Program-made: the position numbers and the translations under genes
Assembly (NCBI GenBank): GCA_024742875.1
Contig: JANSXP010000006.1
Coordinates: 1-64,000, forward strand
Source: Planctomycetaceae bacterium
GTDB taxonomy: Bacteria; Planctomycetota; Planctomycetia; Planctomycetales; Planctomycetaceae
Length of the DNA: 64,000 bases
Direction of reading: 5' to 3'
Notes under the pieces: generated by a model
Told to the model about the DNA's origin: nothing
The model's database searches: none
What the model saw: only the letters and a program-made list of their open reading frames with translations
Shown here: piece after piece, positions 34,689-38,334 of the stretch
Position numbering within the stretch: position 1 is the stretch's first letter
How the letters are laid out: the number at the start of each line of letters is the position of its first letter

Positions 34689-35741
34689 TCAGTTTTTGGG
34701 AGGAAACGGTCGCAGGCCGAGCAGCATCTCGGCGCGTTCAGTCAGCGGGCGTGCGGCCGCTTCGACGTCTGTGAAATCGGACAGGCACTCAATCACCGAC
34801 TGATAAACGGTCTGCCGGTCAAAGCTGGTATCGATTTCCACGCACAGTCCGGCCGCTCGAAAGTAGTCGACGGTCGGAAGTGTCTGTTCTTTGAATCGGC
34901 GGAATCGTTCTTCGAGTGCTTCCACATTGTCATCGGAACGCCCCGTGTATTTGGCGCGTCCGAGCACACGCTGCTTCAGCACGTCCAGCGGACACTCCAT
35001 GTAGAGCATTTTCGGAAGCTTCACATCGGCACCGACCACCCGCTGCCATTCTTCCAGGTTGCCCATCGAACGCGGAAACCCATCCAGCAGAAAGTTGCGT
35101 TTGCCCGTGCTGCGAGTGATGGTTTCCATCGTGCTGCGCAGCAGGCGCACCACGATGTCGTCGGAGATGAAGTTTCCTCCGGCCAGCAGCTCTCTGATGG
35201 ACGCCGCGAGGGGCCCTTCCTTTTCCTGCTCCGCCCGAAGCAGCTCTCCGGTGGACAGGTGCACCCAGTCCAGCTGTGATTCAGCCAGTTCACACATCGT
35301 GCCCTTGCCGGCCCCCGGCCCCCCCAGCACGAAGACAATGTTCGGTTCCGGGCAGGCTTCCCGCGGATCGCAGTGATGAATGGTCAGCTGTGGGGCGGGT
35401 GCGACCCCCTTGTGGTACACCTCCCAGGGTTGATCGGTGGGAGGCAGATCATCTTCGCACGTGATGTGATAAGCCAGATGACCGTCCTGTCTCGCGATCC
35501 GCCACGACTGATAACTGTTGGAATACGACAAAGTCGGACTGCGTTCACAGTTGCCGTCCGCCCGGTCCCAGGCAAATTTGCCGTTCCAGTAGCCAACAGA
35601 TGAGACGGTTCCGGACTCGGATTTGGCCGCAGGGGCCGTCGACGGCACAAACAACCCGTCGACCTCCGGGATGCCGGCGCCGGAGACTTCGATAAACAGT
35701 GTGTTTGGCTTTGGATTTGTGGATTCCACCTGCTCTCCCAT
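34689..35741 (-). CDS. UMP/CMP-kinase-like nucleotide kinase with extra N-terminal domain
   Basis: Residues about 135-330 form a short-type adenylate/UMP-CMP kinase: P-loop GGPGAGKGT (140-148), HLSTGELLRAEQE, NFLLDGFPRSMGNLEEW (NMP-binding region) and GRAKYTGRSDDN (short lid). The lid sequence GRSDDN is closer to eukaryotic UMP-CMP kinase than to bacterial Adk. Residues 1-130 form a separate beta-rich module (IEVSGAGIPEVDGLFV, YWNGKFAW, SWRIARQDG, LPPTDQPWEVYHKGVAPAP) resembling a domain I recall from protist and algal proteins. Phosphate transfer to a nucleoside monophosphate is expected. ATG 35741 has GAGG upstream. Cytoplasmic. The chromosomal adk gene is presumably elsewhere. Confidence 0.85.
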   Translation of the reverse strand: MGEQVESTNPKPNTLFIEVSGAGIPEVDGLFVPSTAPAAKSESGTVSSVGYWNGKFAWDRADGNCERSPTLSYSNSYQSWRIARQDGHLAYHITCEDDLPPTDQPWEVYHKGVAPAPQLTIHHCDPREACPEPNIVFVLGGPGAGKGTMCELAESQLDWVHLSTGELLRAEQEKEGPLAASIRELLAGGNFISDDIVVRLLRSTMETITRSTGKRNFLLDGFPRSMGNLEEWQRVVGADVKLPKMLYMECPLDVLKQRVLGRAKYTGRSDDNVEALEERFRRFKEQTLPTVDYFRAAGLCVEIDTSFDRQTVYQSVIECLSDFTDVEAAARPLTERAEMLLGLRPFPPKN

Positions 35742-35960
35742 GGCGTTGCCTCTGGATCTCGCCCGTTTCGTACGGCTTACGACCGGGAAGTTAGATCACT
35801 GATCAGGGCGACGCAATCCGATCGCTGTTGGGAATCTGCAGTTCCCCCTGCCGACTGGCGGACGAACGTAAGAAACGCGGAAATTCGACCGAACCTTCAG
35901 ACTGGACGGGGGGTCGCTGCCAGTGCCCGATGATTTTCCGGGCTTAGCCGAGGAATCCTG

Positions 35961-36050
35961 ATGTCTGTCACACGATTTTTGCCCAACCTTTGCCACAGCC
36001 GATTTGCAGGTGATCGACCATCGCTGCAGGCGCTGCTGTTGCGTATGTGA
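35961..36050 (+). CDS. putative 29-residue leader peptide or small protein
   Basis: The frame ATG 35961 to TGA 36050 encodes 29 residues beginning MSVTRFLPNLCHSRF and ending LQALLLRM. A clear Shine-Dalgarno GAGGA (35950-35954) lies six bases before the ATG. The stop is followed 17 bases later by an intrinsic terminator, and the last codons form one arm of a 12-bp inverted repeat. This layout suits a translated leader peptide controlling the EF-G paralogue 220 bases downstream, or a free-standing small gene. Coding is not proven. Confidence 0.45.
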   Translation: MSVTRFLPNLCHSRFAGDRPSLQALLLRM

Positions 36051-36116
36051 CACCCTCAAGGCACTCGGCCCGGTGTTGATGTACGCCGGGCTTTTTTTGT
36101 GCGCCAACAGCAGCGC
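36030..36116 (+). repeat. 12-bp inverted repeat enclosing the orphan terminator
   Basis: GCGCTGCTGTTG (36030-36041) is an exact reverse complement of CAACAGCAGCGC (36105-36116). The terminator hairpin lies between the arms, giving a nested structure in read-through RNA. The left arm is made of the last codons of the 29-codon ORF. Confidence 0.85.
36068..36098 (+). terminator. orphan intrinsic terminator in the EF-G paralogue leader
   Basis: GCCCGGTG (36068-36075) pairs with CGCCGGGC (36084-36091) over 8 bp (one G-U), followed by seven T residues (36092-36098). The only upstream plus-strand frame it can serve is the 29-codon ORF; otherwise it is an attenuator for the gene at 36271 or the end of an unannotated RNA. 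Confidence 0.85.
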
Positions 36117-36270
36117 TCTGAACTGCCAGTGCGACACCACTGGGTGTCGTCCCTTCTTCTTTTCCCGCGCAGAAGCGCGGTATGGCACAGGCTGCACGCT
36201 GCGTTTTGGACTCCTTCGCACATCCTGTCGATGACGCTGTGGTTTCGCTGCGCGCAGGCCATTTTTCGGA

Positions 36271-38334
36271 ATGACTCTCATGACGACCAAACGACGCAAT
36301 ATTGGCATCTCGGCCCACGTCGACGCGGGCAAAACCACTTTGACGGAACGCATCCTCTATTACACCGGCCGCATCCATCAGATGGGTGAGGTCCACAGCG
36401 CATCGGGAGCCACCATGGATCACGATTCACTGGAGGCCGCGCATGGAATTACCATTTCTTCGGCCGTGACTCAGGTCACGTGGAAGGACCACACCCTGAA
36501 CATCATTGACACTCCTGGCCACGTGGACTTCACTGTCGAGGTGGAACGCAGCCTGCGTGTGCTCGATGGCGCTGTACTGGTGCTGTGTGCTGTTGGTGGC
36601 GTTCAGAGTCAGTCGCTGACCGTCGACCGACAAATGAAACGCTATCAGGTGCCTCGCGTTGCCTTCATCAACAAGATGGATCGCAGCGGCGCGGACCCGG
36701 ATCGTGTGGTGCAGGAACTGGCTGACAAGCTGCAGACGACGCCTGTTGTCCTGCAGTACCCGGTGGGAACCGGGGGTGACTTCAATGGGGTCATTGACCT
36801 TCTGACCATGCAGTGGGTGCAGTTTCAGGGAGAACATGGGGAACGCGTGATGCGATCCGCCATACCTGACGAGCTGTCTGCGGCGGCTGAAACCGCCCGG
36901 CAGCGGATGCTGGACACCCTGAGTCTGTTTGACGACGAGATTATGCGACAACTGCTTCAGGACGAAACTCCGTCTGCGGAGCAGTTGCAGCAGGTAATTC
37001 GCAATGCCACATTAGGGCTGCAGGTCACGCCCGTTGTGATGGGCTCTGCCTATCACAATCAGGGGGTTCAGGAACTGCTCGATGCGGTGACATTCTGTCT
37101 GCCGTCTCCTGAAGAAAGAGAGGTTTATGCCAATGACAATACGGCATCGGAATCGGCTCAGCTGCAGCGGAAACTGACAAGTCATGCGGACGATCCTGTC
37201 GTCGCCATGGCCTTCAAGACCGTTGTGGAATCGTTTGGGCAGCTGACGTATCTGCGCGTTTATCAGGGGACCATTCGCAAGGGCGATTCTCTGACGAACG
37301 CCAGAACGGGGCGGTCTGTTCGATTTCGACGCCTGGTCCGTCTCCATGCGGGTCAGCGTGAGGAGATCGCCTGTGCGGTCGCCGGGGACATTGTGGGAGT
37401 CATGGGTGTCGACTGTGCATCGGGAGACACGTTTCACAGCCCGCAGATTTCCTGTTCGCTGGAAAACATCTTCGTGCCGGATCCAGTCGTGGAGCTGTCA
37501 ATCACTCCGATTGACCCGCAAAGCGCATCCACACTGGCAAAGGCACTGGACCGGTTTCGGCGACAGGACCCCACGTTTCGCGTCACAGCAGATTCACTCA
37601 CGGGCGAGACACTGATTTCCGGAATGGGACAACTCCATCTGGACTTGTATGTGGAACGCCTGCGAGACGAATTTGACTGTTTGTGTGAGACCGGGGCTCC
37701 CCGGGTGGCTTGGCGACAGCGGCCGACTGTGTCGGTGGAATTCAACCATCGGTTGAGCAAACAGTCGGGCGGTCCTGGTCAGTTTGGTCACATCATTGGG
37801 CATATGGAACCATTGTCTGAGGATACGGACCAGCGATTTGAGTTTGTTGACGAAGTTAAGGGCGGACGGATTCCCCGGGAGTACATCCCGGCCATCCGCA
37901 AAGGCTTCGAAGACGCACTCCATTCAGGACCAGCGGGTGACTTTGAGGTTGTGGGAGTGAAGGTTGTCCTGACAGACGGCACCTTCCACGAGCAGGACTC
38001 GTCCGACAAAGCCTTTCGTGACTGTGCGCGAGACGCGATGCGGACGCAGATCCTGCCTCATGCCGGCGTTGTTGTGCTGGAGCCGTTCATGCGACTGCAA
38101 CTGGAACTCCCCGAGGAGTTTCAGGGGCGGGTCACGGGACACCTGATCAGCAGTCTCGGTATGGTGACGTCTTCGACGACAGTGGGCGGTGTTTGTTCAC
38201 TCGTCGCCGAAGCCCCACTGTCACAGCTGTTCGACTATGCCACGCAGCTGCGTTCACTCACGCAGGGGCAGGGCAGTTTCCGCATGGAACTGCTTGGATA
38301 TCGTCGCACCAGTCAGGCTCACGTCATTGCGTGA
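36271..38334 (+). CDS. fusA: elongation factor G paralogue
   Basis: EF-G drives GTP-dependent translocation on the ribosome. The 687-residue product has the five G motifs: AHVDAGKTTLTERI, switch I/II with DTPGHVDFTVEVERS, NKMDRSG and GSAYHNQGVQ, then domains II-V (MAFKTVVESFGQLTYLRVYQ, GMGQLHLDLYVERL, PFMRLQLELPEEFQGRVTG). Instead of the usual arginine in the R-GITI segment it has HGITISSA, and the switch region carries MDHDSLEAAHG. Genes usually flanking the main fusA (rpsL, rpsG, tuf) are absent, so this is a secondary EF-G. ATG 36271 or 36280 can start it. It lies behind a structured leader with an attenuator-like terminator. Confidence 0.9.
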   Translation: MTLMTTKRRNIGISAHVDAGKTTLTERILYYTGRIHQMGEVHSASGATMDHDSLEAAHGITISSAVTQVTWKDHTLNIIDTPGHVDFTVEVERSLRVLDGAVLVLCAVGGVQSQSLTVDRQMKRYQVPRVAFINKMDRSGADPDRVVQELADKLQTTPVVLQYPVGTGGDFNGVIDLLTMQWVQFQGEHGERVMRSAIPDELSAAAETARQRMLDTLSLFDDEIMRQLLQDETPSAEQLQQVIRNATLGLQVTPVVMGSAYHNQGVQELLDAVTFCLPSPEEREVYANDNTASESAQLQRKLTSHADDPVVAMAFKTVVESFGQLTYLRVYQGTIRKGDSLTNARTGRSVRFRRLVRLHAGQREEIACAVAGDIVGVMGVDCASGDTFHSPQISCSLENIFVPDPVVELSITPIDPQSASTLAKALDRFRRQDPTFRVTADSLTGETLISGMGQLHLDLYVERLRDEFDCLCETGAPRVAWRQRPTVSVEFNHRLSKQSGGPGQFGHIIGHMEPLSEDTDQRFEFVDEVKGGRIPREYIPAIRKGFEDALHSGPAGDFEVVGVKVVLTDGTFHEQDSSDKAFRDCARDAMRTQILPHAGVVVLEPFMRLQLELPEEFQGRVTGHLISSLGMVTSSTTVGGVCSLVAEAPLSQLFDYATQLRSLTQGQGSFRMELLGYRRTSQAHVIA

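Follow-up and report, generated by a model that had tools for sequence, protein, structure and literature searches.

What does an intrinsic terminator do immediately upstream of a gene for elongation factor G (EF-G)? This question is raised by a locus of a Planctomycetaceae bacterium within what we call the window, the whole stretch of 64,000 nucleotides that was analysed. A first-pass annotation had described a Shine-Dalgarno (SD) sequence, a 29-codon open reading frame (ORF), a terminator with seven Ts, a 12-bp inverted repeat and two later hairpins in front of an EF-G paralogue, and had proposed that the position of a ribosome on the ORF decides whether transcription terminates. All of these elements are present in the sequence (Table 1). 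The terminator stem (36067-36092) has 10 bp and a loop of 6, starts 16-17 nt past the leader stop codon and is accompanied by a run of 7 T at 36092-36098; the predicted folding energy of the stem-loop is -19 to -19.5 kcal/mol. The two later hairpins lie at 36131-36150 and at about 36165-36180, before the EF-G gene. It is also correct that no other plus-strand gene accounts for this terminator, since the adk gene (34689-35741) is on the minus strand and the plus strand before the terminator contains no gene of annotated size.

Table 1. Elements of the leader and the gene that follows it, with positions in the window.
Feature	Position	Strand	Basis or remark
Shine-Dalgarno sequence GAGGA	35950-35954	+	6 nt 5' of the leader ORF start; read from sequence
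Leader ORF, 29 codons, MSVTRFLPNLCHSRFAGDRPSLQALLLRM, C-terminus ALLLRM-UGA	35961-36050 (UGA 36048-36050)	+	Sequence
Segment A, TGACACC, antiterminator strand; first triplet is the leader stop codon	36048-36054	+	Family comparison, folding
Segment B, GGTGTTG, inner portion of the terminator 5' arm	36072-36078	+	Sequence, folding
Intrinsic terminator (B:C hairpin and 7 T)	36067-36098	+	Sequence, folding
12-bp inverted repeat, left arm, within the leader ORF	36030-36041	+	Sequence
12-bp inverted repeat, right arm, 3' of the termination site	36105-36116	+	Sequence
Possible degenerate ECF-type promoter, GACCGAACCTTCA-N-GGGGTCGCT	35885-35917 (approximate)	+	Weak PWM match, not significant
Diverged extra EF-G paralogue	36271-38334 (start 36271 or 36280)	+	TIGR00484, 782 bits

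The terminator is of a common type in a rare place

Terminators of the form GCCCGG..CCGGGC-T7 are a stock type, with 8 in this genome, and in genus relatives they are found 3' of groEL, tRNA and other genes. Base rates for the genome of the window were taken from 1.26 Mb of its 8.2 Mb. In this sample, 54 of the 83 comparable terminators lie behind a same-strand gene, 15 are inside predicted genes and 14 are orphans with no same-strand gene within 150 nt upstream. The window terminator is therefore common in type and rare in placement. An orphan-looking terminator elsewhere on the contig of the window (C22, 118228-118252) ends a 54-aa lipoprotein-like ORF that is below the gene-calling cut-offs.

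We compared the other leader elements with shuffled sequence. An ATG ORF of at least 20 codons with an SD sequence, ending no more than 40 nt from the terminator, occurs in 2.7% of shuffles, and 0.25% of dinucleotide shuffles contain an exact 12-bp repeat within 100 nt. The leader ORF is thus modestly unlikely by chance and the repeat more so. The fold of the whole leader is not unusually stable relative to shuffles (z of -0.9 and -1.5).

The same arrangement precedes tRNA arrays

Two other terminators of the genome, at C20 (51.5 kb) and C33 (251.7 kb), resemble that of the window. Upstream of each is an ORF of 29-31 codons that starts with ATG and whose stop codon opens the segment TGACACC or TGACATC, and downstream of each is a tRNA array. 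This arrangement of ORF, TGACACC-like segment and terminator is found before tRNA arrays throughout the genus. We built a covariance model, R2, from 10 tRNA-array leaders, leaving the window out, and ran it over 397 genomes of the class, 112 of which contained matches. There were tRNA genes no more than 500 nt downstream at 76 of the 95 best-examined matches, in arrays of up to 13 tRNAs, and another 21 of 52 weaker matches were upstream of tRNA genes. The first tRNA often begins 2-25 nt past the T run, so that many of these terminators must be read through and there is no space for a promoter in between.

The module that defines this family consists of an ORF of 28-69 codons (most commonly 33) ending in Leu-Arg-X-UGA, a TGACACC-like segment A of which the UGA is the first triplet, and a terminator 17-45 nt further on. 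Loosely defined, Leu-Arg-X-stop is found in 54 of the 76 tRNA-linked leaders. The Leu codons at the leader end include CTG, TTG, CTC, CTA, CTT and TTA and the Arg codons CGC, CGT, CGA, CGG, AGG and AGA. This variety of synonymous codons argues for selection on the peptide. Over whole related leader ORFs, dN/dS is just mildly below 1.

For the anticodons of which we found a core tRNA as well as an array tRNA (Tyr, Trp and Gly; C20, C33 and C56), the two share only 63% identity, and the arrays therefore look like a second, diverged tRNA set. A fourth leader in the genome precedes a Phe/Lys array (L159; C20, about 48.6-49.2 kb, minus strand). Its terminator differs in sequence, with a 3' arm that by eye is copied at the end of an ORF, and it has Leu-Arg-Tyr-UGA and an ECF-type promoter.

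Rfam models recognised the tRNAs of the array loci and nothing in the leader, and no cis-regulatory family reached its gathering score in the window. A known RNA family was rejected as the identity of the leader for want of any match. We found no description in the open-access literature of an attenuator for tRNA operons or arrays, nor any earlier account of this leader family.

The end of the leader ORF can pair with the terminator

The 3' arm of the terminator, which we call C, resembles segment A, and A and C compete for segment B. Across the family, 87.6% of A:B cells are paired and the covariation score was reached by none of 500 shuffles, in counts that are inflated by kinship of the sequences. 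Sliding the register of A against B reduces the paired cells to 51% or less. The pair adjoining the UGA is G-C in 43 leaders, A-U in 10, C-G in 2 and G-U in 10; the base before the UGA covaries with its partner. The variety of pair types and the result with shifted registers speak for a real A:B pairing. When prefixes of the RNA were folded, the probability of A:B before C exists was above 0.5 in 74 of the 76 tRNA-linked leaders. In the window, A and B form 7 of 7 pairs, including two of the G-U type, with loss of the pair at -1. Here the predicted probability of A:B is 0.97 before C is made and 0 at full length, when the terminator wins.

Other pairings had been considered for this leader. 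The first-pass annotation had named CCGGGC (35938-35943) as the switch partner of 36068-36073, and the probability of this pairing was near 0 in all folded prefixes. We rejected the 12-bp repeat as an antiterminator, since its 3' arm lies past the T run and a terminated RNA would not contain it; the repeat can close only when transcription has already gone beyond the terminator. The antiterminator is instead likely to be formed by TGACACC, which starts with the stop codon, and GGTGTTG. The original observation is thus confirmed and its interpretation partly supported. The notion that ribosome position on the ORF decides termination gains comparative support, as the module recurs ahead of tRNA arrays and its alternative pairing covaries, but the antiterminator originally proposed was the wrong one.

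The window probably carries the module, without a tRNA array

When R2 was run on the window it scored 35.0 bits, the third-highest of all matches in the 1.26 Mb of the genome. An ordinary terminator of the same genome (C77) scored 33.9 bits, and membership of the window in the family therefore rests jointly on the ORF, Leu-Arg-X-UGA and TGACACC. The order and spacing of the elements match those of the family: an ORF with a good SD sequence, Leu-Arg-Met-UGA, TGACACC and a terminator. When the window's own upstream sequence was shuffled, the ORF, 7 of 7 A:B pairs and Leu-Arg-X came together in 0.04% of cases, an optimistic figure as the test was devised after the pattern had been seen. It is very improbable that this is just a stock terminator in the space separating two divergent genes, behind an ORF that arose by chance. 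The terminator type is indeed common, the fold is ordinary and the ORF alone is not rare, but the combined pattern is as scarce among shuffles as stated and fits a family that was derived without the window.

No tRNA lies downstream of the leader within the window, so we do not class it as a tRNA-array leader. The window very probably carries the attenuator module shared with that family, without being a tRNA-array leader itself. Leaders that lack a tRNA are rare: the 147 places that were examined yielded the window itself, L280, probably L315 and also L196, which is at a contig end. Of the 19 best-examined matches with no tRNA, only the window, L280 and L196 have Leu-Arg-X-stop. L280 and L315 contain leader-like modules with no tRNA found downstream; these are either relics or leaders with other targets.

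The gene behind the leader is a diverged EF-G

The EF-G of the window is full-length. It scores 358 bits against the tet_protect model, which is below the cut-off of 775 for that model. It is at best about 60% identical to the EF-G copy that is conserved in the genus and family. Searches of 397 genomes of the class and 392 of the phylum yielded no orthologue with more than about 62% identity, and a scan of public genomes returned only relatives of 37-46%. The genome contains other EF-G copies at C100 (59% identical) and in the str operon at C56 (38% identical), a set that agrees with a planctomycete origin. A GDG-like insertion in switch I marks spdEFG1 of spirochaetes, planctomycetes and deltaproteobacteria (PMC3150367); it is present in EF-G of the C100 type and absent from the window copy. 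The window EF-G has HGIT where its nearest relatives have RGIT. It is on a long branch, with changes in 28 of 261 columns that are otherwise invariant in 35 relatives. As judged from its sequence, it is a lineage-specific, fast-evolved extra copy.

Conservation of the leader upstream of EF-G in relatives had been set beforehand as a test. Neither the ORF sequence nor the DNA is conserved there, as expected for an EF-G that lacks a close orthologue, and a conserved leader upstream of the relatives' EF-G was rejected with none found. Conservation of the leader emerges only in the comparison with tRNA-array leaders. We also rejected an insertion of EF-G in place of a tRNA array by adk, as the adk gene of relatives has no tRNA next to it.

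A conserved terminator, CGCCAGACAGG..CCTGTTTGGCG-T7, separates rpsG from fusA in 7 of 8 genus genomes (L003, L036, L038-L042), at a distance of about 70-150 nt from the str-operon EF-G, on its upstream side. The str-operon fusA of these genomes may be attenuated or may have its own promoter. This terminator was rejected as a homologous leader on account of its position between rpsG and fusA, its other sequence and the lack of a leader-ORF pattern.

Candidate promoters of the leaders

Of 78 leaders, 47 strictly match an ECF-type promoter motif, GCGCGAACCATTT-N15/16-GCGTCTTA; the background is 0.17 per spacing. The motif can also be written GCGCGAACC(A/T)TTT-N15/16-GCGTCTTA before tRNA-array leaders (L193-L222 and others). 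The three best matches in the 1.26 Mb of the window's genome are exactly the three tRNA-array leaders. The fourth-best, at about 38852 of C46 on the minus strand, is 81 nt upstream of an apparent seryl-tRNA synthetase gene. Recognition by an ECF sigma factor is our reading of the motif, and it suggests that the tRNA arrays may belong to a stress regulon.

In the window, the best ECF-type match has a PWM score of -0.6 against a family median of 23.3, and 18% of shuffles score as high. We rejected it as a promoter on this score. Sigma-70-like promoters were no more frequent in the leader region than in shuffles. The searches for sigma-70-like and ECF-type promoters identified none for the window leader, and motif searches found none between 36116 and EF-G.

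These searches bear on two other explanations of the locus. The 29-aa ORF, or a small RNA, might be a unit of its own that is ended by the terminator, with EF-G transcribed from a separate promoter. Neighbouring genes do have terminators within about 60 nt of their stop codons, and the other orphan terminator of the same contig ends the 54-aa ORF mentioned above. We nevertheless hold this to be improbable, given that we found no free-standing gene homologous to the 29-aa ORF, that the end of this ORF follows the pattern of the tRNA leaders and that the stretch from 36116 to EF-G yielded no promoter.

The leader might instead be the relic, or a captured copy, of the leader of a lost or rearranged tRNA array, and as such be unused or lower EF-G constitutively by premature termination. 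This is doubtful, though clearly less so than a small independent gene. The missing ECF-type promoter match is in its favour, as are an A:B pairing that is weaker than in most relatives, the existence of leaders without tRNA elsewhere (L280, L315) and signs that the locus was rearranged, EF-G not adjoining adk in six genus relatives. Against it, the ORF, SD sequence, Leu-Arg-X-UGA, A:B complementarity and terminator are intact together, the window contains no tRNA and adk of the relatives has no neighbouring tRNA array.

A proposed switch and its meaning

On balance, we lean towards the reading that the leader is a ribosome-sensing transcription attenuator, from a family that in this class normally stands before tRNA arrays, and that it acts here on EF-G. 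We read the locus as a trp-type attenuator of this kind that was captured by an EF-G paralogue, or as the relic of one. RNA polymerase would make A, then B and then C. With a ribosome stalled early in the ORF, or with none, A would be free and would pair with B first, delaying the terminator and permitting readthrough. A ribosome arriving promptly at the UGA would cover A, leaving B to pair with C, and transcription would stop. The ribosome bound at the leader UGA would be the off-signal, and impaired translation would lead to expression of the tRNA arrays and, in the window, of EF-G. The leader ORF has no run of control codons and Leu-Arg-X-UGA is family-wide; Leu-Arg-X before the UGA suggests that the nascent peptide may slow termination of translation. 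Ribosomes at a stop codon in E. coli disturb a hairpin that follows within about 27 nt (PMC4824070). With the stem of the window 16-17 nt past the stop, a ribosome there could directly occlude the terminator, an effect of opposite sign. The earlier suggestion that the EF-G paralogue may be linked to the state of translation gains comparative support from the shared module.

Many bacteria have tRNA arrays. A conserved leader peptide, an attenuator and an ECF-type promoter in front of them would tell when the arrays are made and open the control of their expression, and their purpose, to tests. A more tentative idea, possible rather than probable, is that diverged tRNA arrays and, here, a diverged EF-G form a backup translation kit under a shared leader-peptide attenuator. 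This kit would be released when ribosomes miss the leader UGA, for example upon tRNA cleavage or ribosome poisoning, and in the arrays the ECF-sigma-type promoter would act as a second stress gate. The EF-G case suggests that the same switch is able to recruit a translation factor into a coordinated programme; that a diverged EF-G under this type of switch serves backup translation is conjecture. The main discovery is the leader family. In terms of mechanism, an antiterminator that is opened by the stop codon itself, behind a conserved Leu-Arg-X-UGA, would make a clean variation on ribosome-mediated attenuation.

Comparison with known systems

In trpL of E. coli, a leader ORF is combined with competing 2:3 and 3:4 pairings, and a ribosome at the stop codon favours the terminator. 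The leaders described here are like attenuators of the trp/his type in their leader ORF, their competing pairings and a terminator that would be favoured by a ribosome at the stop codon. The window itself has a translatable ORF upstream of a terminator and a same-strand gene, with a predicted antiterminator pairing that excludes the terminator. Unlike the trp/his type, these leaders contain no run of a single control amino acid, the stop codon begins the antiterminator strand, Leu-Arg-X-UGA is conserved and the usual targets are tRNA arrays. In the tet(M) leader of Tn916, terminators and a leader ORF of some 28 codons precede the gene of an EF-G-like ribosome GTPase, whereas the window gene encodes an EF-G of canonical type and not a ribosome protection protein.

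The rpsL-leader attenuators of str operons (PMC2965389) have premature terminators close to genes of translation factors. Those precede rpsL, whereas the terminator here comes before an EF-G gene that does not belong to the str operon, and it is accompanied by a leader peptide. The tRNA array units of two reports (PMC5966550, PMC12803027) are the same kind of object as the arrays behind the leader family, and the window differs from them in having no tRNA. Arrays have been proposed as a putative antidefence system (PMC12803027). Word searches within both reports (PMC5966550, PMC12803027) found that neither a terminator nor a promoter is mentioned for tRNA arrays.

In hflXr/rli80 of Listeria, the gene of a GTPase that acts on the ribosome is behind a ribosome-dependent attenuator with a short ORF and alternative structures (PMC6310831). 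That ORF is 14 aa long with an RLR motif, and the system is induced by drug-stalled ribosomes (PMC6310831). The RLR motif of hflXr/macrolide-type leaders is absent from the window peptide, which has 29 codons and ends in ALLLRM. With a GTPase gene behind a ribosome-dependent attenuator that contains a short ORF in both, as predicted for the window, hflXr/rli80 is the nearest functional analogue of this locus.
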